48,906 bases of DNA. It comes from a virus. A program made the translations under genes and the position numbers. How positions within the stretch are numbered: position 1 is the stretch's first letter; every line of letters begins with the position of its first letter. Below the pieces are notes generated by a model. It did no database searches. It had not been told where the DNA came from and worked only from the letters and a program-made list of their open reading frames with translations. The stretch covers positions 1-48,906 of the IMG/VR virus record IMGVR_UViG_3300037200_000144. One strand, 5' to 3'. Positions 1 through 48,906 of this stretch are shown here, piece after piece.

Positions 1-490
1 GGTGAGACCAAGGTCTGCGGTGAGGCCAAGGTCTGCGATAAGGCTGTGGTCTACGGTGAGGCCAAGGTCTGCGATAAGGCCCAGGTCCGCGGTGAGGCCA
101 AGGTCTGCGGTAAGGCCAATGTCTGCGGTGAGGCCAAGGTCTGCGGTGAGGCTGTGGTCTACGGTGAGGCCCAGGTCTGCGATAAGGCTGTGGTCTACGG
201 TGAGGCCCAGGTCTGCGATAAGGCCCAGGTCTGCGGTGAGGCTGTGGTCTGCGGTGAGGCCAAGGTCTGCGGTGAGGCCAAGGTCTGCGGTGAGGCCAAG
301 GTCTACGGTGAGGCCCAGGTCTGCGATAAGGCTGTGGTCTACAGTAAGGCCCAGGTCTGCGGTAAGGCTGTGGTCTGCGGTGAGGCCAAGGTCTGCGGTG
401 AGGCCAAGGTCTACGGTGAGGCCAAGGTCTGCGGTAAGGCCAAGGTCTGCGGTAAGGCCAAGGTCTGCGATAAGGCCCAGGTCTACGGTG
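1..490 (+). repeat. 18-bp tandem repeat array (hexapeptide units)
   Basis: Imperfect 18-bp units of the form GTC-TRC-RRT-RAG-GCY-NNG. Bases 1-119 are identical to 48297-48415, including two rare variants (GAGACC and GTCCGC), which links the two ends of the window. No unit contains a stop in any + frame, so false open frames run alongside. Confidence 0.95.
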
Positions 491-726
491 AGGCCGGACA
501 AACGCTCATCTACATTCAGGGCACCAAATATTTTATCTGCTGCTCGGGGCGTGGAATTGTAACGTCTGGCTGCATCACGAAACCGCTTGCGTGGTGGCTC
601 GAAAATATCGAGCGATGTGCGGAGGAGCATGGTTACACGCCGGACCAACAAAGGGAGTATCGATTGCACGTAGAGCATATCGCGGCCTGGATGCGGATTT
701 TTAATCTTGATAAACCACCTGAATAG
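1..726 (+). CDS. Hexapeptide-repeat protein, C-terminal part (5' end outside window)
   Basis: The frame is open from base 1, so the start lies outside the window. Bases 1-490 encode about 27 hexapeptide units of the form V-[C/Y]-[G/D/S]-[E/K]-A-[K/Q/V], one per 18 bases, the pattern of left-handed beta-helix proteins. The last ~75 residues form a separate C-terminal domain with a GC-x-WWLENIE-like core and a helical YRLHVEHIAAW segment. The same repeat-plus-cap layout occurs in prophage proteins built of xVYGxA units. The gene is most likely the missing 3' end of the truncated gene starting at 47997, if the genome is circular. Function is unknown; a self-assembling or virion-surface scaffold is possible. 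Confidence 0.75.
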   Translation, partial: GETKVCGEAKVCDKAVVYGEAKVCDKAQVRGEAKVCGKANVCGEAKVCGEAVVYGEAQVCDKAVVYGEAQVCDKAQVCGEAVVCGEAKVCGEAKVCGEAKVYGEAQVCDKAVVYSKAQVCGKAVVCGEAKVCGEAKVYGEAKVCGKAKVCGKAKVCDKAQVYGEAGQTLIYIQGTKYFICCSGRGIVTSGCITKPLAWWLENIERCAEEHGYTPDQQREYRLHVEHIAAWMRIFNLDKPPE

Positions 727-3727: not shown

Positions 3728-4291
3728 ATGTCTGGCGTTTCTAAACGCACTCGTTTTGAAGTCTTCAAGCGCGACAAGTTCACCTGCCAGTACTGCTGGC
3801 GAAAACCGCCCGAGGTAATCCTTGAACCCGATCACGTAATCCCGAGTTGCGACGGCGGTTCGGATCACATGGACAATCTCGTCACAGCCTGCTTTGATTG
3901 TAATCGGGGAAAAGCAGGCGTATCTCTGGATTCTTTGCCGCAAACCATTTCCGACAAGATTGCGCAGAAGCTGGAGCTTACTTTGCAGGTGAAAGCTCTC
4001 GACCGACTTCTTAAGCGCGAACGGAAGCAAGAGGACTGTGATATTCACGAAGTCGGAGTCTTTTGGTACAACCTTTTCATGCAGAAAAAGAATGGCTTTG
4101 TTTTCGGGCCTTCCAGGATTCCATCCATCCGACGTTTCTTGCAATCGCTCCACGTCACCGACTTGACTAGATTCGCGGAAAAAGCGATCCAAAAGAGACC
4201 GCCGCGCAACGACGATGATGAGCAGGCGTTTAGATATTTTTGTGGAATTTGTTGGAATAGAATCAAAGGGAAAAACACTCCGACAACTTAG
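3728..4291 (+). CDS. HNH endonuclease
   Basis: 187 residues. The first 70 residues carry a zinc-binding HNH module: CQYCWRKPP, then EPDHVIPSCDGGSDHMDNLVTAC and DCNRGKAG, giving CxxC...DH...N...CxxC. The remaining helical 110 residues are of unknown role. The ATG at 3728 is preceded by AAGGAGGG at good spacing; a longer in-frame reading from 3557 lacks such a site. Bases 3583-3727 between this gene and the previous one show nothing recognizable. It may be a homing endonuclease or a host/phage DNA nuclease. Confidence 0.8.
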   Translation: MSGVSKRTRFEVFKRDKFTCQYCWRKPPEVILEPDHVIPSCDGGSDHMDNLVTACFDCNRGKAGVSLDSLPQTISDKIAQKLELTLQVKALDRLLKRERKQEDCDIHEVGVFWYNLFMQKKNGFVFGPSRIPSIRRFLQSLHVTDLTRFAEKAIQKRPPRNDDDEQAFRYFCGICWNRIKGKNTPTT

Positions 4292-4388
4292 TCGGGTGAC
4301 CCGTGCCGCATGCGCGATTACGCTAAGCAACGAAAGTTGAGGCGTGCTCCGGGGAAAACTTGCGGCGCGGGGATTTTGAAAGCAAAGA

Positions 4389-4625
4389 ATGACCAACGCC
4401 CGAAAACTTCTGCTGCATCTGTTTCGCGCCCACGGCCCGCAAACCGAGCCGGAGGCGAAATGGTGGTTGACCAAATTCAATCTCACGCGCGGACAAGTGG
4501 CATATGCCCTGCGCTCGTTGCGCCGGGAACGTGTCTTGCTTATGGACGGCGCGAAGGTCGGCCCCCGAGGTCGCCTTGTGAAGCGGTGGGCTTTGGCCCC
4601 GTGCCGTCGCAGCGTCGCCAAGTGA
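4389..4625 (+). CDS. Small winged-helix-like protein
   Basis: 78 basic residues. The pattern WWLTKFNLTRGQVAYALRSLRRERVLLMD is that of a winged helix: a recognition helix followed by a wing with a GPRGRLVKRW strand. A DNA-binding regulator is likely but not proven. It is followed 54 bp later by the Holliday junction resolvase gene. No strong ribosome binding site is seen. Confidence 0.5.
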   Translation: MTNARKLLLHLFRAHGPQTEPEAKWWLTKFNLTRGQVAYALRSLRRERVLLMDGAKVGPRGRLVKRWALAPCRRSVAK

Positions 4626-4679
4626 CCCAGCAATTTGGAATCGAGATGAGAGGAAAACTAAAGAGGCGAGGGCCGCAAA

Positions 4680-5201
4680 ATGAAAATTCTCGGAATTGAT
4701 CCTGGCAAAGACGGCTTTCTCTGTCTGCTGAGCAACGGCGATGCGCCTCAGTTTTGGCCTACGCCCACCGTCCGTATAGGCAAGGGGGCAAGCCAAAAAC
4801 GCGACTATAACGTAGCCGCTATGCGGCGGATCATTATCAATTGCTCGCCCGATTGCGTTGTTTTGGAAAAGCAGCAGGCCATGCAGGGTCCCCATGGCCG
4901 AAAGCAAGGCGTGGCTACGACCGGACAAATTATGTATGGATATGGATTGTGGCTGGGGCTCGTCGCCGGGATCGGGTTGCCGTTGCAGACGTGCCACCCC
5001 CGCACGTGGCAGGCGCTAATTCTGAAGGATGTCCAGGGTGTAGACACCAAGGCCCGGTCGATAATCGCCGCCGGCCGATTGTTCCCGACCGTTGACCTGC
5101 GCGCAACCGATCGTTGCCGCACGCCGCACAACGGAAAAGCCGATGCCTTGCTGCTGGCGTATTGGGGCAAGATTGCCGGAATGTTTTGCGAGGCGCGGTA
5201 G
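4680..5201 (+). CDS. RuvC-like Holliday junction resolvase
   Basis: 173 residues with the RNase H-fold resolvase signature: GIDPGKDG with Asp7, VVLEKQQ with Glu63, and TPHNGKADALLLAYWG with His150 and Asp155, the expected acidic residues plus a catalytic His. Length matches bacterial RuvC and phage relatives. It would resolve branched DNA from recombination or replication before packaging. It sits just upstream (3 bp) of a DNA methyltransferase gene and is probably co-transcribed with it. Confidence 0.85.
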   Translation: MKILGIDPGKDGFLCLLSNGDAPQFWPTPTVRIGKGASQKRDYNVAAMRRIIINCSPDCVVLEKQQAMQGPHGRKQGVATTGQIMYGYGLWLGLVAGIGLPLQTCHPRTWQALILKDVQGVDTKARSIIAAGRLFPTVDLRATDRCRTPHNGKADALLLAYWGKIAGMFCEAR

Positions 5202-5204
5202 GCC

Positions 5205-5945
5205 ATGAATCTCGACAGCTACAAATGGGACTGGGTTTCTCCCGATGGAAATATCAGGTTGGCATGTGCGGACTGTTTACAAGTCTTGCCGACGTTAGAG
5301 GCAGAGAGCGTTCATGCCGTGATAACCGATCCTCCGTATGCCATTCCGACGATTGTTGCCTCTGGCAGAAGCAACACGTCGAACCTTGGCGACCTCAGTT
5401 TGATCGAATCGGCTTTCCGGGGTCTGTTCAACGAATGGCGACGGGTTATCGGAGACGCCGGAAGGACTTTTGTGTTTTGCGATGGGGTTTCATATCCGGT
5501 TCTGTTTCGCGCTGTCTATGGAAAACTAGCAACTGCTCTGCTCGTTTGGGCAAAACTTGGAATCGGCATGGGTCGCGAGTTTCGCAAGTCTCACGAATTG
5601 ATCCTACATGCGTGGGCAGCCAAGACACCCATCTTCTCTGACGGGATTGGACGGGCGGACGTGCTAACTTATCCCATGGTGCCAACAGATGAACGGCAGC
5701 ATCCAGCAGAGAAGCCCGCCGACTTGATTGAAGAATTATTGACGGTTTGTGGGCCTATCGTTTGTGATCCGTTCATGGGATCGGGAACCAGCGGAGTTGC
5801 CTGCGTCCGAACTGGTCGGAAATTCATCGGAATCGAAATCAGCGAGGAGTACTTCGATATCGCCGTCAAGCGAATCGAGGCCGAGTTGAACCGACACCCG
5901 CTCTTGGAGCCGAAGCAACCCACCCAGGGGAGCTTGCTGCCGTGA
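5205..5945 (+). CDS. DNA methyltransferase 1 (amino-methyltransferase, DPPY type); self-target of CRISPR spacer 5
   Basis: 246 residues with motif IV DPPY (residues ~43-46) preceding the SAM-binding motif I DPFMGSGTSG near residue 190, the order of class beta N4-cytosine/N6-adenine methyltransferases. The target-recognition region lies between. It ends FDIAVKRIEAELNRHPLL, an end shared with the next methyltransferase and a remnant at 7188-7292. No restriction enzyme is adjacent, so it is an orphan, probably protecting phage DNA or altering expression. Bases 5245-5283 match CRISPR spacer 5 perfectly, so the gene may be repressed by the phage's own effector. Confidence 0.88.
   Translation: MNLDSYKWDWVSPDGNIRLACADCLQVLPTLEAESVHAVITDPPYAIPTIVASGRSNTSNLGDLSLIESAFRGLFNEWRRVIGDAGRTFVFCDGVSYPVLFRAVYGKLATALLVWAKLGIGMGREFRKSHELILHAWAAKTPIFSDGIGRADVLTYPMVPTDERQHPAEKPADLIEELLTVCGPIVCDPFMGSGTSGVACVRTGRKFIGIEISEEYFDIAVKRIEAELNRHPLLEPKQPTQGSLLP
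5245..5283 (-). promoter_or_regulatory. Self-protospacer of CRISPR spacer 5
   Basis: All 39 bases are the reverse complement of spacer 2471-2509. It begins 40 bp after the methyltransferase start codon. Flanks on the - strand, in spacer orientation, are GGCAAGA on the 5' side and CGGG on the 3' side. If the array is read rightward, the crRNA is antisense to the methyltransferase mRNA. Confidence 0.9.
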
Positions 5946-13415: not shown

Positions 13416-13473
13416 AGCGTGAACAAAATTTTCCAACCGAACTTGCCAAACCCGGTCGGATTCGGTAAGATGT

Positions 13474-13539
13474 CCAAGAGAAGGAGAAAAAATGGCAGCG
13501 ACACCTCCAAGAGAAGGAGAAAAAATGGCAGCGACACCC
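13474..13539 (+). repeat. 33-bp tandem duplication containing ribosome site and start codon
   Basis: Two adjacent 33-bp copies (13474-13506, 13507-13539) differing at the last base. Each carries AAGAGAAGGAG and an ATG, in the same frame, so the next gene has two equivalent starts (13492 and 13525). Confidence 0.95.
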
Positions 13540-30266: not shown

Positions 30267-30689
30267 ATGGGCAATGCGTATGGACAATCAGGACAGGGTG
30301 GCACGCTCACCATAGGCGAGATCGGTCCTCTTGGCTGCACCTCGATCAAGCTCCGCAAGCCTTACACGAATGCCGACACAACGGTAGGCGACAACGGATG
30401 GGCAAAACTGTGCCCGATCTATCGCGATTGGATGATCGACGTTGAAATCCCTTCCCGCAAAGCCGATTTCTCGGAGACGATCGTCGATGCTTTTGACGCC
30501 GACGCCTTTCCGCCTAACGTCGTTGACGTGGCCATTCCCCAATGCGTCTTCGTGCTCCCCAATGGGCGAACCTATACGGGCTATGGGATGCTCGATGGGG
30601 AGGTCGGCGTGGACTGCCCCGCGAAGGATGCCGTGCGACTAAAGTTTACCATCAAGGGGTCCGATGAATTGACGGTATCGGGCGACTAA
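30267..30689 (+). CDS. Major tail (tube) protein candidate
   Basis: 140 residues starting MGNAYGQSGQGGTLTIGEIGPLG; AAAGGAG 5 bp upstream. Compact beta protein with YTGYGMLDGEVGVDCPAKDAVRLKFTIKGS, a strand pattern typical of tail-tube subunits, directly before the chaperone pair as in siphophages. The last codons are altered by a 47-bp tandem duplication that introduces a new stop. Confidence 0.55.
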   Translation: MGNAYGQSGQGGTLTIGEIGPLGCTSIKLRKPYTNADTTVGDNGWAKLCPIYRDWMIDVEIPSRKADFSETIVDAFDADAFPPNVVDVAIPQCVFVLPNGRTYTGYGMLDGEVGVDCPAKDAVRLKFTIKGSDELTVSGD

Positions 30690-30728
30690 AGTTTACCATC
30701 AAGGGGTCCGATGAATTGACGGTATCGG
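30636..30728 (+). repeat. 47-bp tandem duplication
   Basis: Copies at 30636-30682 and 30683-30728 (period 47; second copy one base short). Without it the tail gene would end LTVSE-stop and overlap the next start (ATGA); with it the gene stops at 30689 and the overlap is lost. Confidence 0.95.
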
Positions 30729-34412: not shown

Positions 34413-34467
34413 ATCGCGATTTTGAATACTAGATTTTTGGGGCGTTATCCGTAGTGAAGGTGGGTTG

Positions 34468-35481
34468 ATGGCAAAGAAATCCGAAGCTGAACAGCTCTTC
34501 GAGCGGGCACTGAAACGCAAGTCCCCCACGGACCAAACCGACCATGTTCAAGTCGGCGACGCGCCGGGATTGCCTTCGATTCCTTCGGCTCGTGGCGAGA
34601 AACCGCGATCACCACAGGAGTCCGAAAAGCTCGCCAACCTCCAGGTCATGATCGACCGCGTTTTCGCCAAGCAGCCGGCCATCAAAGCCGCGATGACGGC
34701 GCAGCTTGCCGCCGGGCAGGCATCCGCCGCGGCGACCCGCAAGCAGGTCCAGGCCGCGATGGCTGCGGCAGCGGCTAGGGGCCCAGAGCCGTCACCCGCT
34801 GCTGCGCCGTTGGCTGGAGCGCCGTCACTGGCTCCCAAAGCATCTACCGCCGGTCAGCCGCCCGTCGCCACGCCCGTCGCCACGCTGGAGGATCGTCGCA
34901 AGGCCCTCGCGACGATAACCGACGTGCGACAGCGGGACGTTACGTCGCTGCAGGCCGCGATGGCTGCGGCAGCGGCTAGGGGCCCAGAGCCGTCACCCGC
35001 TGCTGCGCCGTTGGCTGGAGCGCCGTCACTGGCTCCCAAAGCATCTACCGCCGGTCAGCCGCCCGTCGCCACGCCCGTCGCCACGCTGGAGGATCGTCGC
35101 AAGGCCCTCGCGATGATAACCGACGTGCGACAGCGGGACGTTACGTCGCTGACGACGATCGAGCCGGAGCACCTGAATTTCGGCGGACCACGAGTCCTTT
35201 TGGATTACTCAATTCCTCCCCCGCACACGCTGACCGACGCGAAGGGCCGCTACGTCGAGACCTTCCGCTGGTTCGATCGCGCGTTCCTAGTCTACGATCC
35301 GTCGATTCCGGCCGGCGAAAAGGGCAGCGAGCATGATCCGTGGTTTGGGATTAGCGGCCCGAAATTCAGGTGCTATTATCCAAATTCGAGCGCTGCGGAT
35401 TTTCAGTCGATGATGACGTCGGGAAGTTCCGGCCGCTGGCTCCATGCGTGGTCGGAAAAATCCAACTATGTGGAGTTTTGA
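34468..35481 (+). CDS. Ala/Pro-rich protein with recent internal duplication
   Basis: 337 residues. N-terminal helix KKSEAEQLFERALKRK, then two 67-residue copies of an Ala/Pro-rich helix-linker module (QAAMAAAAARGPEPSP... to DVRQRDVTSL), followed by a folded C-terminal ~105 residues with PRVLLDYSIPPPHTL and HDPWFGISGPKFRCYYP. Function unknown; a virion or host-takeover protein with a stretchable spacer is possible. Confidence 0.6.
   Translation: MAKKSEAEQLFERALKRKSPTDQTDHVQVGDAPGLPSIPSARGEKPRSPQESEKLANLQVMIDRVFAKQPAIKAAMTAQLAAGQASAAATRKQVQAAMAAAAARGPEPSPAAAPLAGAPSLAPKASTAGQPPVATPVATLEDRRKALATITDVRQRDVTSLQAAMAAAAARGPEPSPAAAPLAGAPSLAPKASTAGQPPVATPVATLEDRRKALAMITDVRQRDVTSLTTIEPEHLNFGGPRVLLDYSIPPPHTLTDAKGRYVETFRWFDRAFLVYDPSIPAGEKGSEHDPWFGISGPKFRCYYPNSSAADFQSMMTSGSSGRWLHAWSEKSNYVEF
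34750..35151 (+). repeat. Two tandem 201-bp copies
   Basis: 34750-34950 and 34951-35151 differ at one base (Thr to Met), so the duplication is very recent and keeps the frame. Confidence 0.95.
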
Positions 35482-35987: not shown

Positions 35988-36586
35988 CGAAACCGAAAAG
36001 CAAGATTCCACGCTCCTTGCGCCTGGAATGGCGAACGCCGGCCGAGTTGACGGACAATCCCGAAAACTGGCGGACGCACCCCACCGCGCAAACCGAGGGC
36101 CTTGCCGCCGTGATTGGGCAAGTCGGATGGGCCGGGGCCGCGCTCTACAACGAGCGAACCAAGCGATTGATCGATGGCCACGCCCGAAAGCACCTTCCGG
36201 ATGAATTGCTTGTCGATGGAAAAATGCCCGTGCTGGTAGGCAATTGGACGGAAGAGCAAGAGCGGATGATCCTGCTGACACTCGACCCGCTGGCAGCATT
36301 AGCGGAGGCCGACAACGACATCCTGGGCAAGCTCCTGCTGGCGAGCCAAAGCGAAGATGCGGCCGTTCAGGCGCTCTTTGATGGGCTGGCGGAGGAGAAC
36401 GTGATTGACATCTTCGCGGATGGCGAGGAACTCCCCAACATCAACGAAACGACTCGCCACACCGTTGTCGTTCCGTACAATGATGGTGACATTCCGATTT
36501 TACAGAAATTTTTGGAAGTCGACGAACTGCCGGATCGACTTGGAAAGGCGATCATTGAGCGAATTAAAGCAATCGCTGCGGCTTGA
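35984..36586 (+). CDS. ParB-like nuclease-domain protein
   Basis: 200 residues. TPAELTDNPENWRTHP...GLAAVIGQVGWAGAALYNE, then LIDGHARKHL and MPVLVGNWTEEQERMILLTLDP, the ParB N-terminal (CTP-binding/Spo0J-like) fold as found in phage DNA-modification and packaging clusters. No HTH is obvious. Coupled to the Mom-like gene that overlaps its end. Confidence 0.8.
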   Translation: MTKPKSKIPRSLRLEWRTPAELTDNPENWRTHPTAQTEGLAAVIGQVGWAGAALYNERTKRLIDGHARKHLPDELLVDGKMPVLVGNWTEEQERMILLTLDPLAALAEADNDILGKLLLASQSEDAAVQALFDGLAEENVIDIFADGEELPNINETTRHTVVVPYNDGDIPILQKFLEVDELPDRLGKAIIERIKAIAAA

Positions 36587-37343
36587 GAAAATCGCCAATA
36601 TCGAGGCGGCCGCACTACTGAACGCAAAGCACCCCTTGGGCAGCGGCCACTCGTTCGCGTTCTCTCTAGGCGTGTTCTGGCGAGACCATTGCGAAGGCGT
36701 CTTGACCTTCGGCTGTCCAATCAGCAATAACGCCGTAAAACGCTATGGGCTAAGACAATGCGATTCCCTAGAGCTTCGAAAATTTTGGATAAGCGACGTG
36801 CCGCCGAAGAACTCGGAAAGTCGAATTCTCGCTATTGCGGCCAGGATCATTCGCAAGCGGTATCCGCAATTGTGGCTCCTGCTGACGTACTGCGCAGGCG
36901 ACGAAGCCGCATCAGCCTACAAGGCGGCGGGCTGGATTCCATGCGAGGCACACCAATACGTCCGCGAAGTAAAAATCAACGGTCGATGGCTGAGCGTGCG
37001 CAATGCAAATAGGCTGGGCGTGACGAAGCAGGCCGCGGAGAAGAAAAGCGAGAATCGGCGGAAATTCGTTCTTCCGCTGACGGCCGCCGCGGCTCAACTG
37101 ATTGCGGCGAAGAGCGAGCGTTCCGCCGGCATAGCGGCAAAGACAATTGGAACTTCGACAGCGAATAATCCCAGCCTGCCCAAGACGGGCACGGGCTCGA
37201 TCGACCTGACATTTGCCAGCACCCAAGCGAAGTCGCCCGGATCGCCCCCGCAACAGGCCGCGGATTCGTCGCCCGCCACGAAACGCCGGCAGTCCACCAA
37301 ATCCACCAAGGCCACGGCAACGCCCGTAGGATCGGAGTCATGA
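36555..37343 (+). CDS. Mom-like GNAT-fold DNA modification protein
   Basis: 262 residues from TTG 36555 (GAAAGG 6 bp upstream). Residues ~20-140 follow the Mu Mom layout: GSGHSFAFSLGVFWRDHCEGVLTFGCP, then CDSLELRKFWISDVPPKNSESRIL, then WLLLTYCAGDEAASAYKAAGWIP. Mom modifies adenine N6 in phage DNA to evade restriction. The last ~100 residues are low-complexity and run antisense over the ASCH gene. Pairing with a ParB-like gene is recurrent in phages. Confidence 0.7.
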   Translation: MSELKQSLRLEKIANIEAAALLNAKHPLGSGHSFAFSLGVFWRDHCEGVLTFGCPISNNAVKRYGLRQCDSLELRKFWISDVPPKNSESRILAIAARIIRKRYPQLWLLLTYCAGDEAASAYKAAGWIPCEAHQYVREVKINGRWLSVRNANRLGVTKQAAEKKSENRRKFVLPLTAAAAQLIAAKSERSAGIAAKTIGTSTANNPSLPKTGTGSIDLTFASTQAKSPGSPPQQAADSSPATKRRQSTKSTKATATPVGSES

Positions 37344-43829: not shown

Positions 43830-44789
43830 ATGTTCACCGAAGTAGTTCACCGAGACCAAAAAGACGACAGTTATCACGCTGACCAGGCGTGGAGTGTCAG
43901 CCAATGGAAGCTCTTGCCGGACCATCCGGAAGAATTTCATGGATATCACGTCGTCAAGCCGCCGCGATGGGAACGGGAAATCACGCCAGCCCTTGCATTC
44001 GGCACAATGGTTCACGCGCGGCTCCTGGAGCCCGACACGTTCAGCGAGAAATGCCCCGAAGCCGGCGCATGCGCCGGCGTGCTCAAGACCGGCAAGAATG
44101 CCGGCCAGTCTTGCGGGAACTGCGCGACCATGCGCGATACATCCGGAAACTGGTGGTGTGGTGTACACGGCAAGGGGACCGGCGCCCAGTCGATCGATTG
44201 CCTCTCATCCACAGATGCCTTGCGCCTGGACTCCATAGTTCGCGGGGTGCATGCGAACCCGAAAGTTTGCGGCTGTCTGTCCGCGCCTGGACAAACCGAG
44301 TACGCCCTGTTCGGCACTCATGCCGAGACAGGATTGAAGGTTCGCGGCCGGCTGGACCGATGGTACGAATTAGGCGGCGGGCGAATAATCGTTGATCTCA
44401 AAACCTGCGCGCACGATCCATGCAATGAGCGGCTTGTAGCGGCAACGTGTCTTCAGCGCGGCTATCATTGCCAGTGCGCGGCCTACCTCGACATGATGGA
44501 GGGCGCCGGACTTCGCTGCGATGGCTTTGTCTTTATTTTCATCCGCACGTCGCCGCCGTACAATTCATGCCTCTGGCTGCTGAACGAAAACGCTGTCGAC
44601 CTTGGCCAGCGGCGCAATCGCCTGTCTCTGCTAAATCTTGCTGACCGGCTGAAAACCGGCGACTGGATGGGACCTCGTAACGGACAGGAAAACTACCTCT
44701 CGTTCCCAGCGTGGGCACTAGAGGACAACACGCATATCGCGGAAGCCAACGCCGAAGCGTTTTCGGAATTCGCGGCTTTCGCGAACTAA
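43830..44789 (+). CDS. RecE-like PD-(D/E)XK exonuclease
   Basis: 319 residues. QWKLLPDHPEEFHGYHV and FGTMVHARLLEP open the fold; catalytic part is GLKVRGRLDRWYE (Asp) and RIIVDLKTCA (D-x-K), followed by YHCQCAAYLDMM. A Cys-rich insertion (CGNCATMRD...WWCGVH) resembles a zinc site between. Acts with RecT downstream to process double-strand ends. Confidence 0.8.
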   Translation: MFTEVVHRDQKDDSYHADQAWSVSQWKLLPDHPEEFHGYHVVKPPRWEREITPALAFGTMVHARLLEPDTFSEKCPEAGACAGVLKTGKNAGQSCGNCATMRDTSGNWWCGVHGKGTGAQSIDCLSSTDALRLDSIVRGVHANPKVCGCLSAPGQTEYALFGTHAETGLKVRGRLDRWYELGGGRIIVDLKTCAHDPCNERLVAATCLQRGYHCQCAAYLDMMEGAGLRCDGFVFIFIRTSPPYNSCLWLLNENAVDLGQRRNRLSLLNLADRLKTGDWMGPRNGQENYLSFPAWALEDNTHIAEANAEAFSEFAAFAN

Positions 44790-44940: not shown

Positions 44941-45441
44941 ATGACGATCCGTTTCCGAGACTTGACCGGCCAGAGGTTTGGCCGGCTGGTCGTTCAACAG
45001 CGAGCCTATCGACGGCCCGGCGTTTCCCCTGAGTGGCTTTGTCGCTGCGACTGCGGCGCGGAGAAGATCATCGCCGCAAGCAGTATGACGAGCGGCCGGA
45101 GCAAGAGTTGTGGTTGCCTTCGCAGCGACTTTGGCAAAGCTAAGCGGACTCATGGCGCCAAGCGGACGCCTGAGTATTACTCGTGGTCTCACATGATATA
45201 TCGCTGTGAAAATCCAAAGGCCAACCGATATGACCGCTACGGCGGCCGTGGAATTACCGTCTGCGAGCGCTGGCGACACTCGTTCGAGAACTTTCTAGCA
45301 GACATGGGCAATCGACCGAGCCCGCAACACACCCTCGACAGAATCAATTCTGACGGCAATTACGAGCCTGCAAACTGCCGTTGGGCCACCTGGAAACAGC
45401 AGGCCAACAATCGCAAGAAAAGAAAGAGAGTCCGATCATGA
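44941..45441 (+). CDS. HNH/AP2-type homing endonuclease-like protein
   Basis: 166 residues. An N-terminal zinc module (WLCRCDCGAEK...SCGCLR) precedes the HNH part YGGRGITVCERWRHSFENFLADMG and HTLDRINSDGNYEPANCRWAT, with QQANN end, as in free-standing phage homing endonucleases. Inserted between recombination genes recE-like and recT-like, with its own promoter and leader; probably a selfish gene held silent by the switch. Confidence 0.8.
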   Translation: MTIRFRDLTGQRFGRLVVQQRAYRRPGVSPEWLCRCDCGAEKIIAASSMTSGRSKSCGCLRSDFGKAKRTHGAKRTPEYYSWSHMIYRCENPKANRYDRYGGRGITVCERWRHSFENFLADMGNRPSPQHTLDRINSDGNYEPANCRWATWKQQANNRKKRKRVRS

Positions 45442-46580
45442 GCACAGACGCCCTTACCGTTGCCGGCAATCGCCTTCCGGCTGTCCGCAACGATCCAACA
45501 GATGACGCGCCGCCCGAGTGGAGGCAAGTCATTCGAGAAGCGGAAAAGTTGGCAGTTGCCACGCTGACGCCCGAGCATCTGAAAGTTCCCATGCCACCGT
45601 TCCGTGAAAACGATCCCCAGAACGACGCGAAGCGCCGGGCGGCATGGAACCAGACCGTTGCCAACTGCATTCTCGTTGCCAATCAGGCGTTCAAGTGGAA
45701 GGCGGATGTGTTCGCCGTAGCGGCCGAATCCTACGTCGTCCGCAACAAACTCGGCTATCAGGGAAAGCTCATAGCCGCCGTGGTCAACGCCCGAGGCGGT
45801 CTCCGGACTCCGCTCCGCGCAATTCATTCCAAGACGAAGGGGGATTCCTTCGCAGCCGTGATCTACGGCAGCAAGACGGTTGATCTGCAATCGTTGGCCA
45901 AGGAGGCCAAAAAATATATTTTCGCGTTGCTTGTCCGCTATGCTGACGACGACGACCAGGAGGCAAATCGAGATTTGGCGATGGAAGACATTTTGGCCGT
46001 GCGCGTCTCTGTCGGCCAGTGCAAGACGCTCGATAAAGAGGGGCATGTCAATCAGCAGTGGACAAAGGACCCGGAACAGAAATTGATTTACACGGGCACC
46101 ACGAAATGGGCACGCCGCTACACGCCGGAGTTGATGGTTGGCATTCTATCCGATGACGACCTGGACCGCATGAGGACAGCGCAGAAGATCGAACCGTCGG
46201 CGGAGCAAAGGCGGATTTCCACCTTGATCCCGGCAAGCCTCGACACAAGCAGGCTTGGCGTGCCGCAAGTCGCCGACGAAATCCCGCTGACCGAGGAAGA
46301 GCAGGCCGTCCCCTTCACCCCGCCCACCGCCGAAGAGCAGGCCGAGGCCCGCGAGCAGATCGACAAGCCCGCGGAACAGCCGGGGCCCATGCCGCCTGAC
46401 GACGGCTTCGACCCCGTGGCTTGGGCCGATGAATTCGTTGCTCGAATTCCCAATTGGACCCGCGCCAAGCAGCGCCGCGAGGCATCCGAGGCGCTCTACA
46501 AGAACATGGAGCGTCTAGGGTCCGCGCAGTACGAGCGATGCTTCAAGGCGGCGCAAGCCGCCGGCTGGATCATGGACTGA
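45438..46580 (+). CDS. recT: RecT-family single-strand annealing protein
   Basis: 380 residues, ATGA overlap with the HNH gene. Core ~60-200: NQAFKWKADVFAVAAESYVVRNKLGYQGKLIAAVVNARGGL is the RecT signature; AAVIYG and EAKKYIFALL follow. The C-terminal ~150 residues are an acidic linker and a small helical domain (RAKQRREASEALYKNMERLG). Pairs with the RecE-like exonuclease for homologous annealing. Confidence 0.85.
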   Translation: MSTDALTVAGNRLPAVRNDPTDDAPPEWRQVIREAEKLAVATLTPEHLKVPMPPFRENDPQNDAKRRAAWNQTVANCILVANQAFKWKADVFAVAAESYVVRNKLGYQGKLIAAVVNARGGLRTPLRAIHSKTKGDSFAAVIYGSKTVDLQSLAKEAKKYIFALLVRYADDDDQEANRDLAMEDILAVRVSVGQCKTLDKEGHVNQQWTKDPEQKLIYTGTTKWARRYTPELMVGILSDDDLDRMRTAQKIEPSAEQRRISTLIPASLDTSRLGVPQVADEIPLTEEEQAVPFTPPTAEEQAEAREQIDKPAEQPGPMPPDDGFDPVAWADEFVARIPNWTRAKQRREASEALYKNMERLGSAQYERCFKAAQAAGWIMD

Positions 46581-46601: not shown

Positions 46602-47198
46602 ATGACGGCTGCTGACGTCGCAAAATTGATAGAAGAAGTGAAGCGATTAGCTAGAATCGCCTTGATTGAAGATGTTGGTAGAGAAGAAGCTGACCGTCTT
46701 ATCTCTGCTGCGAGTTGTGATCGGACTAGTAGCGAATACCGTAAGGGATGGCATCGGCACGGCAACGGGGGCGGATGGGTGCAAGATACTGCCACAGTTC
46801 ATGCGACTGCCCAGGTCTGTGGTAATGCTCTGGTCTACGGTAAGGCCCAGGTCTACGGTGAGGCCAAGGTCTACGATAAGGCCCAGGTCTGCGGTGAGGC
46901 TGTGGTCTGCGGTAAGGCCCAGGTTTACGGTAATGCCAAGATCTACGGTGAGGCCCAGGTTTGCGGTAGGGCCCAGGTTTACGGTAAGGCCAAGGTTTAC
47001 GGCGAGGCCCAGGTCTGCGATAAGGCCCAGGTCTACGGTGAGGCCAAGGTCTGCGATAAGGCCCAGGTCTACGGTGAGGTCAAGGTCTGCGATAAGGCTG
47101 TGGTCTACGGTGAGGCCAAGGTCTGCGGTGAGGCCAAGGTCTGCGGTGAGGCTGTGGTCTACGGTGAGGCCGGTGGCAATGAATTTGAGGTAACCTAA
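46602..47198 (+). CDS. Hexapeptide-repeat protein 1
   Basis: 198 residues. N-terminal helical ~50 residues (VAKLIEEVKRLARIAL...), the module WHRHGNGGGWVQDTATVHATAQV shared with the next two genes, then ~20 hexapeptide units and a short end (GGNEFEVT). AAAGGA precedes ATG. Lacks the C-terminal domain seen at 490-726. Confidence 0.7.
   Translation: MTAADVAKLIEEVKRLARIALIEDVGREEADRLISAASCDRTSSEYRKGWHRHGNGGGWVQDTATVHATAQVCGNALVYGKAQVYGEAKVYDKAQVCGEAVVCGKAQVYGNAKIYGEAQVCGRAQVYGKAKVYGEAQVCDKAQVYGEAKVCDKAQVYGEVKVCDKAVVYGEAKVCGEAKVCGEAVVYGEAGGNEFEVT
46818..47170 (+). repeat. 18-bp hexapeptide repeat array (gene 1)
   Basis: About 20 units of the GTC-TRC-RRT-RAG-GCY-NNG pattern. Confidence 0.95.
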
Positions 47199-47322
47199 CC
47201 AAAAGTTTCCAGCGGGCTCCGCTGCAAGAAGAAAATCGCCAAACCCGGCCGACAATCCCCACTACAACGAGGTCGCGCTGCGCGAGGCCGTTCCCAACCC
47301 CAACCCCATAGAGAGCAACAAA

Positions 47323-48000
47323 ATGAGTAATGCAATTTCGACACCATCCGCAAGCGACGACGCGGCATGGGAAGCAATTCGTAAAATCCACCCGTGGTTG
47401 CCAAGCAGCCGCGAAGGATGGCATCAGCATGGCAACGGTGGCGGATGGGTGCAAGATACTGCCACGGTTCATGCGACTGCCCAGGTCTACGATAAGGCTG
47501 TGGTCTACGGTAAGGCCCAGGTCTACGGTGAGGCCAAGGTCTGCGATAAGGCCCAGGTCTACGGTGAGGCCAAGGTCTGCGATAAGGCTGTGGTCTACAG
47601 TAAGGCCCAGGTCTGCGATAAGGCTGTGGTCTACAGTAAGGCCCAGGTCTGCGATAAGGCCCAGGTCTGCGGTGAGGCTGTGGTCTACGGTGAGGCCCAG
47701 GTCTGCGATAAGGCTGTGGTCTACAGTAAGGCCCAGGTCTGCGGTAAGGCCAAGGTCTGCGGTGAGGCTGTGGTCTGCGGTGAGGCTGTGGTCTGCGGTG
47801 AGGCCAATGTCTGCGGTGAGGCCAAGGTCTGCGGTGAGGCTGTGGTCTGCGGTGAAGCTCTGGTCCGTGATAAGGCCCAGGTCTACGGTGAGGCCCAGGT
47901 CTGCGATAAGGCTGTGGTCTACAGTAAGGCCCAGGTCTGCGGTAAGGCCAAGGTCTGCGGTGAGGCTCTGGTCTGGGCTGTGGTGAAAGCAACAAAATGA
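47323..48000 (+). CDS. Hexapeptide-repeat protein 2
   Basis: 225 residues; N-terminal ~35 residues (SASDDAAWEAIRKIHPWLPSS), the GWHQHGNGGGWVQ module, ~28 hexapeptide units, then WAVVKATK and stop overlapping the next start (ATGA). Its first ~200 bp are nearly identical to the next gene, so the two arose by recent duplication. The 124-base gap before it holds only a small GC hairpin. Confidence 0.7.
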   Translation: MSNAISTPSASDDAAWEAIRKIHPWLPSSREGWHQHGNGGGWVQDTATVHATAQVYDKAVVYGKAQVYGEAKVCDKAQVYGEAKVCDKAVVYSKAQVCDKAVVYSKAQVCDKAQVCGEAVVYGEAQVCDKAVVYSKAQVCGKAKVCGEAVVCGEAVVCGEANVCGEAKVCGEAVVCGEALVRDKAQVYGEAQVCDKAVVYSKAQVCGKAKVCGEALVWAVVKATK

Positions 48001-48906
48001 GTAATGCAATTTCGACATCATCCGATTCCGCAAGCCACGACGCGGCATGGGAAGCAATTCGTAAAATCCACCCGTGGTTGCCAAGCAGCCGCGAAGGATG
48101 GCATCAGCATGGCAACGGTGGCGGATGGGTGCAAGATACTGCCACGGTTCATGCGACTGCCCAGGTCTACGATAAGGCTGTGGTCTACGGTAAGGCCCAG
48201 GTCTGCGGTGAGGCCAAGGTCTACGGTGAGGCCAAGGTCTACGATAAGGCCAAGGTCTACGATAAGGCCCAGGTCTGCGGTGAGGCTGTGGTCTGCGGTG
48301 AGACCAAGGTCTGCGGTGAGGCCAAGGTCTGCGATAAGGCTGTGGTCTACGGTGAGGCCAAGGTCTGCGATAAGGCCCAGGTCCGCGGTGAGGCCAAGGT
48401 CTGCGGTAAGGCCAAGGTCTGCGGTGAGGCTGTGGTCTGCGGTGAGGCTGTGGTCTGCGGTGAGGCCAATGTCTGCGGTGAGGCCCAGGTCTACGATAAG
48501 GCCCAGGTCTACGATAAGGCCAAGGTCTGCGGTGAAGCTCTGGTCCGTGATAAGGCCCAGGTCTGCGGTGAGGCCAAGGTCTGCGATAAGGCTGTGGTCT
48601 ACGGTGAGGCCCAGGTCTGCGGTAAGGCCAAGGTCTGCGGTGAGGCTGTGGTCTGCGGTGAGGCTGTGGTCTGCGGTGAGGCCAATGTCTGCGGTGAGGC
48701 CAAGGTCTGCGGTAAGGCCAAGGTCTGCGGTAAGGCCAAGGTCTGCGATAAGGCCCAGGTCTGCGGTGAGGCTCTGGTCTGCGGTGAAGCTCTGGTCCGT
48801 GATAAGGCCCAGGTCTACGGTGAGGCCCAGGTCTGCGATAAGGCTGTGGTCTACAGTAAGGCCCAGGTCTGCGGTAAGGCCAAGGTCTGCGATGAGGCTC
48901 TGGTCT
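47480..48906 (+). repeat. 18-bp hexapeptide repeat arrays (genes 2 and 3)
   Basis: Units as above in two blocks (47480-47980 and 48160-48906) separated by a duplicated ~170-bp gene start. Stretches of several units recur in the same order, e.g. 1-119 with 48297-48415. Confidence 0.95.
47997..48906 (+). CDS. Hexapeptide-repeat protein 3, N-terminal part (runs off the window)
   Basis: 303 codons in view plus one base. N-terminus as in protein 2 (SNAISTSSDSASHDAAWEAI), the GGGWVQ module, then over 40 hexapeptide units to the window end. It likely continues into the reading at 1-726, which has the C-terminal domain; joining the ends directly would break the frame, so at least 2 bases (2 plus a multiple of 18) are missing. 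Confidence 0.75.
   Translation, partial: MSNAISTSSDSASHDAAWEAIRKIHPWLPSSREGWHQHGNGGGWVQDTATVHATAQVYDKAVVYGKAQVCGEAKVYGEAKVYDKAKVYDKAQVCGEAVVCGETKVCGEAKVCDKAVVYGEAKVCDKAQVRGEAKVCGKAKVCGEAVVCGEAVVCGEANVCGEAQVYDKAQVYDKAKVCGEALVRDKAQVCGEAKVCDKAVVYGEAQVCGKAKVCGEAVVCGEAVVCGEANVCGEAKVCGKAKVCGKAKVCDKAQVCGEALVCGEALVRDKAQVYGEAQVCDKAVVYSKAQVCGKAKVCDEALV

Follow-up and report, generated by a model that had tools for sequence, protein, structure and literature searches.

Among described systems, the closest to the arrays reported here is the YdcK family of beta-solenoids (PF18836, B_solenoid_ydck), in which YdcK is their best solved relative (PDB 2f9c/2pig, E=1e-11) and which shares with them the six-residue repeat V-[aromatic or small]-G-x-A-x. 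In the phage collection surveyed, the family occurs in 55-58 records, from streptococcal to Vibrio, Xanthomonas and Bacteroides phages, its members being often misnamed as glycerol kinase, acyltransferase or CRISPR spacers; our search of the literature on YdcK or phage solenoid repeats found nothing relevant and no known function. The genes may also occur as clustered paralogues, as observed in the Streptococcus salivarius plasmid NZ_CP054155, where four genes annotated as polymer-forming cytoskeletal (YdcK-like) proteins lie within 5 kb. In phage phiST1, positions 3806-4768 display a four-unit higher-order repeat, KVSGDAKVWGDAWVYGDAEVYGNA, in several almost perfect copies, and the annotated ORF starts in another frame of the same array.

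In this work, we characterized the arrays of one virus record from IMG/VR, listed as linear and analysed over its full length of 48,906 bases (hereafter, the window). The family is already known, and it is the mode of evolution of its members that constitutes the interesting part. As a whole, we consider it rather probable that the window genes are YdcK-family solenoids whose units are exchanged by homologous recombination, and that they encode an early accessory binding protein.

Solenoid genes of the window and their surroundings

All four arrays (A to D, Table 1) scored above the PF18836 cut-off of 30 bits (A 61.7, B 64.1, C 63.9 and D 37.5 bits), and the solenoid ORFs matched PHROGs 5070/7964; on these profile matches, we assign them as phage members of the YdcK beta-solenoid family. 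Scores for full-length YdcK (NF040481) were 39-65 bits and did not reach the equivalog cut-off of 350 bits. Bactofilin (PF04519), from which the name polymer-forming cytoskeletal protein derives, was rejected, as it matched A only, with 20.6 bits and thus below its cut-off of 27.9. PADLOC gave no defence-system match for the solenoids. The structure model of D, built on a shallow alignment, was all-beta over the array, with pLDDT of about 80-90 for residues 1-100 and 70 overall, and Foldseek with this model returned no PDB match at E<=0.001; the model of C, also from a shallow alignment, had a pLDDT of 49. The beta-helix proposed in an earlier, sequence-only reading of this DNA is backed by the YdcK solenoid family models together with one partly confident structure model. 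Compared to YdcK, phage units A-D are far more uniform, Cys-rich, and preceded by a different N-terminal cap, whose GGGWVQ module represents one version of the family-wide GG[WY] cap.

Table 1. Array genes of the window and genes upstream of gene A
Feature	Position	Strand	Description
Gene A	46602..47198	+	198-aa YdcK-type solenoid with N-terminal leader and GWHRHGNGGGWVQDTA entry motif; array of 20 hexapeptide units starting at 46818, then a short GGNEFEVT tail
Gene B	47323..48000	+	225-aa solenoid, 27 units
Gene C	47997..48906	+	41-unit solenoid, open at 3' contig end
Gene D	1..726	+	Array open at 5' contig start, 27 units (window 16-501), then C-terminal domain
RecT-like single-strand annealing protein	45438..46580	+	Directly upstream of gene A
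HNH endonuclease	44941..45441	+	Profile matches
Exonuclease VIII-like PD-(D/E)XK nuclease	43830..44789	+	Profile matches

The sequence-only reading had placed RecT directly upstream of the arrays, and this was confirmed by a match to PHROG 561 (E=3e-24), though the Pfam RecT score (21.8 bits) lies below the cut-off of 24; the exonuclease VIII-like nuclease is likely the partner of this RecT-like protein. Elsewhere in the window, we observed a Mom-like DNA modification protein (36405-37343; phrog_1384, 9.6e-23), a DNA methyltransferase (5205-5945), and several duplications: a 201-bp tandem repeat in two copies at 99% (34750-35151) inside ORF 34465-35481, a tandem duplication of 47 bp at 98-100% (30632-30728), and a perfect 33-bp duplication with a ribosome-binding-site-like AAGGAG and an ATG (13473-13538).

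Just downstream of gene D, ORF 744-2024 (426 aa) had PADLOC matches to Cas12f (1.8e-7) and Cas12u3 (2.5e-6), and no match in Pfam or PDB. It is followed at 2145-2544 by a CRISPR-like mini-array, with six copies of an invariant repeat of ~36 bp (CCTGCGATGCCTGAACTTTGAATCAAGCATCGCGG) spaced 71-74 bp apart and unique spacers. On sequence grounds, the Cas12f-like gene and the mini-array may together form a compact type V CRISPR system carried by the phage.

Units, codon linkage and array ends

The 18-bp periodic coding array described in the sequence-only reading was borne out by ORFs A, B and C and by their unit counts. Its estimate of over 100 units between 46602 and 48906 was too high, since 88 clean units lie there; the figure holds only with D included, for a total of 115 units representing 32 distinct DNA sequences. 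Similarly, genes A, B and C are indeed three tandem paralogues with a GNGGGWVQ entry module, within a common GWHxHGNGGGWVQDTATVHATAQV, and the fourth array at the opposite end of the record had been missed. The stop of gene B is overlapped by the ATG of gene C, and B aligns with the start of C over 174 nt at 99% identity with an offset of 680. Gene B has no C-terminal domain, its array continuing into WAVVKATK and then a stop; from these alignments, the likeness of B and C is attributed to a tandem gene duplication in which B would have lost this domain. Gene D ends in a C-terminal domain (GQTLIYIQGTKYF...GC...EYR...), a cap with weak alignments to its counterparts in other phage solenoids of the family.

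Both contig ends lie inside arrays, which indicates that the assembly broke there, and bases 1-119 (in D) are identical to 48297-48415 (in C), the longest exact repeats between arrays being of 117-119 bp. For C and D, both length and unit order are therefore provisional. With C open at its 3' end and D at its 5' end, the simplest explanation is a single gene split by the assembly; alternatively, D would be a fourth paralogue and not the 3' end of C.

Units vary at TGC/TAC, GGT/GAT/AGT and GAG/AAG sites, as had been claimed. GCT was followed by GTG or CTG in 34/34 units, and GCC by AAG, CAG or AAT in 77/79, so that a linkage described as invariable holds for GCT and not strictly for GCC, both exceptions being last units of arrays; one ACC and one GTC are also present at the Ala-codon position. 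The mutual information between the Ala codon and the next codon was 0.90 bits, versus 0.08 in permutations. The recurrence of multi-unit blocks in fixed order was also verified, as repeated words exceeded those obtained by shuffling unit order within arrays: 16 occurrences of repeated 4-unit words (shuffle mean 0.09), and 8 of repeated 5-unit words (0 in shuffles). Codon linkage and recurring blocks together indicate that the units are, as far as their sequences tell, copied as haplotypes; as units are not independent, these figures reflect whole-unit and block copying rather than many separate events. A conserved codon code was rejected, given that other phages link different Ala codons to the following residue (GCG-W/L in Vibrio phages, GCA-W in Curvibacter phages), and the linkage is thus regarded as hitchhiking within each array. 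A search for a diversity-generating retroelement found no reverse transcriptase (PF00078) match in this record, which may be incomplete.

Unit pN/pS was 1.89 in D, 1.31 in B, 1.26 in C and 0.92 in A, with intervals for B and C dipping just below 1 and with units that are not independent; it was 2.2-2.7 in Streptococcus phage arrays and 0.5-0.6 in degenerate arrays. The values above 1 in D and in the Streptococcus arrays, versus about 0.55 in degenerate ones, suggest that selection maintains amino-acid variety at the outward positions, a signal not displayed by A.

Array change in relatives and the assembly question

The clearest view of array change came from phages of Streptococcus thermophilus, namely Sfi19 (AF115102; orf229), SFi18 (AF158601) and CHPC919, the latter being a partner in two of the three comparisons. 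The gene is of equal length in all three, and the Sfi19 and SFi18 deposits are older records, which we take to be Sanger-era sequences. Identity is 99.8-99.9% in the 3' flanks. In the 5' flank, Sfi19 and CHPC919 are 100% identical, and the pairs with SFi18 reach 99.1% across the 862 aligned bp closest to the gene. Between Sfi19 and SFi18, 10 of the 21 differences fall inside the 318-bp array (10/318 positions, versus 11/2672 outside; Fisher p=2e-5), and between Sfi19 and CHPC919 the counts are 14/318 and 5/2672 (Fisher p=1e-10); across the three comparisons, the density of differences in the array is 7.6 to 23 times that outside. Codon changes were mainly non-synonymous (7:1 for Sfi19/SFi18 and 11:1 for Sfi19/CHPC919) and mostly located at non-core positions. 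Variant 17-mers were already present in the partner array in 19/20 and 14/28 cases, respectively, against 2.4% for random mutations. This excess of array differences, together with variants pre-existing in the partner array, is read as a signature of gene conversion, and the comparisons support that arrays of relatives may be reshuffled by recombination much faster than the surrounding DNA. Of the growth and shuffling by recombination that had been proposed for the window, shuffling is thus upheld, in these relatives, and length change is unproven.

Length differences were found among phages of Vibrio breoganii (1.034, 1.139 and 1.209), whose genes display the same architecture as those of the window and whose arrays differ between near-identical genomes. 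In the pairs 1.139.A/B and 1.034.O/X, the flanks match at 100% identity across 8.6-8.9 kb and the arrays differ in length, with junctions that include frameshifts and shifts not multiples of 18. According to the original report, 1.034.X is a technical replicate of 1.034.O, 1.139.A and 1.139.B are sub-lineages of one plaque, reads were of 100-150 nt, and the largest indel between replicates was of 201 bp (PMC6029569), which is also how much the 1.139.A and 1.139.B genes differ in length. For these reasons, these phages were set aside as proof of copy-number change: their array differences may be assembly products, and short-read misassembly or a mixture in the stock would explain them equally well. 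Array pieces in five Vibrio phage records (MG592510, MG592418, MG592419, MG592511 and MG592579) are annotated as CRISPR spacers, and are actually coding repeats. As a long-read test of array length, we searched complete genomes of E. coli and found no match to the window or Curvibacter arrays; a homologue on an E. coli plasmid carries a degenerate array and is absent from the chromosomes found.

Since a replicate pair differs in its array, the same caution extends to C and D of the window. Unit order and number could be partly an assembly product, in that short reads cannot place such repeats, the block order of C and D would be an arbitrary path in the assembly graph, and length variation in relatives would be the same artefact. 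This is a plausible account, though one we lean against: the contig ends within arrays, the exact repeats of 117-119 bp, and the 1.034.O/1.034.X replicates (identical over 8.9 kb of flanks, with spacings not multiples of 18) speak for it, but the units, the codon linkage and the short repeated blocks are independent of long-range order, and Sfi19 and SFi18 are shuffled likewise at fixed length. In any case, short-read assemblies of such arrays are not to be taken at face value, as, in the region compared, the array is the one place where a published technical replicate differs.

Role of the protein and comparison with known systems

Relatives with informative annotation are usually located in early regions, often with recombination or replication genes. 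An exonuclease with a recombinase (Mannheimia phage), ERF (phiST1), RusA (contig L040), SbcC/SbcD-like genes (contig L041) or a Mu Gam-like gene (Sfi19 group) lie directly beside the solenoid gene; Gam/Rad52 (phiRM10), a Holliday junction resolvase (BF10P2) and SbcC-like/Sak4 (Javan68) are found a few genes off. Further relatives have RecT or Erf within a few genes, others lie near replication or unknown genes, and P26059A, XacJX1, LfeInf and Aer_P220 have no annotated recombination gene nearby. In addition, many S. thermophilus phages retain both flanks and lack the solenoid gene, which marks it, on genome comparison, as dispensable or accessory in these phages. Location and dispensability together point to an accessory protein that probably acts inside the cell, is presumably expressed early, and is not part of the virion.

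The directly adjacent recombination genes, together with RecT in the window, would also fit a direct part of the protein in phage recombination or replication, e.g., in holding the annealing protein and nuclease together as their scaffold, the array being variable merely because repeats are unstable. We deem this unlikely, given that the kind of neighbour changes each time, that most S. thermophilus phages with the neighbouring Gam gene lack the solenoid gene, and that the charge of the protein is near neutral (-2 to +1), which makes a DNA-like surface unlikely. The virion location hinted at in the sequence-only reading found no support: beta-helices are common in phage fibres, and recombination-driven length variation is known for fibre proteins, so that a fibre, spike or decoration protein with a variable surface diversifying receptor binding could be envisaged, but the early gene context (recombination, replication, regulation) of the window and of most informatively annotated relatives, and the match to YdcK, a bacterial protein for which we know of no export role, render it quite improbable; the sole tail-annotated PHROG match was marginal (5.7e-4). 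Most improbable of all is that the protein would be an enzyme of the left-handed beta-helix kind, e.g., an acyltransferase or a gamma-carbonic anhydrase, as some database names would have it, since the matches to LpxD, LpxA and gamma-carbonic anhydrase models are of about 15-21 bits against curated cut-offs of 207-250.

The reading we prefer, an exchanged solenoid acting as an accessory binding protein, would proceed as follows. The protein would consist of an N-terminal cap with the GGGWVQ motif, a rod of six-residue units with Val and Ala as an invariant core and variable remaining positions, and a C-terminal cap (on D). Homologous exchange, in the form of gene conversion and unequal recombination and possibly carried out by RecT or host recombinases, would copy units and blocks from place to place in one array or from array to array. 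Whole units would in this way spread as haplotypes, with linked codons such as GCT-GTG and GCC-AAG travelling along, while selection would maintain the core and the amino-acid variety at outward positions. Encoded next to phage recombination genes, the early, accessory and intracellular product would most likely, by analogy, be a scaffold with a variable surface for binding factors of the host or of rival phages. A further and less likely possibility is an early-region diversification device driven by recombination, in which gene conversion would keep re-editing a homogenised array located next to recombination genes. The surface of an intracellular binding protein would thereby come to differ among phages, which would be the arms-race equivalent of the diversification of receptor binding. 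As the arrays of relatives change by gene conversion far faster than their flanks, and mostly at amino-acid-changing sites, these solenoids are candidate intracellular phage proteins of rapid diversification, which can be tested in laboratory phages.

Regarding its nearest counterparts, searches in IMG/VR for close relatives of the window RecT and TerL found none, nor a second isolate of this phage. The GGGWVQ module marks a sub-group that includes five IMG/VR contigs (L037-L041), which share the WHxHxxGGGWVQDTA entry motif of the window genes and differ in their array sequences; contigs L040 and L041 carry the YIQGT C-terminal motif present in D, and L037 and L039 have other C-terminal parts. 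Sfi19 orf229 and its SFi18 and CHPC919 homologues resemble the window genes in lying in an early region and in having a GG[WY] entry motif, a hexapeptide array and a C-terminal cap that bears a GC motif, the unit shuffling being that of the streptococcal phages, and differ in their N-terminal domain, of the MIKKFELD...ELGGYV type in the Sfi19 group and of the WHxH...GGGWVQDTA type in the window.
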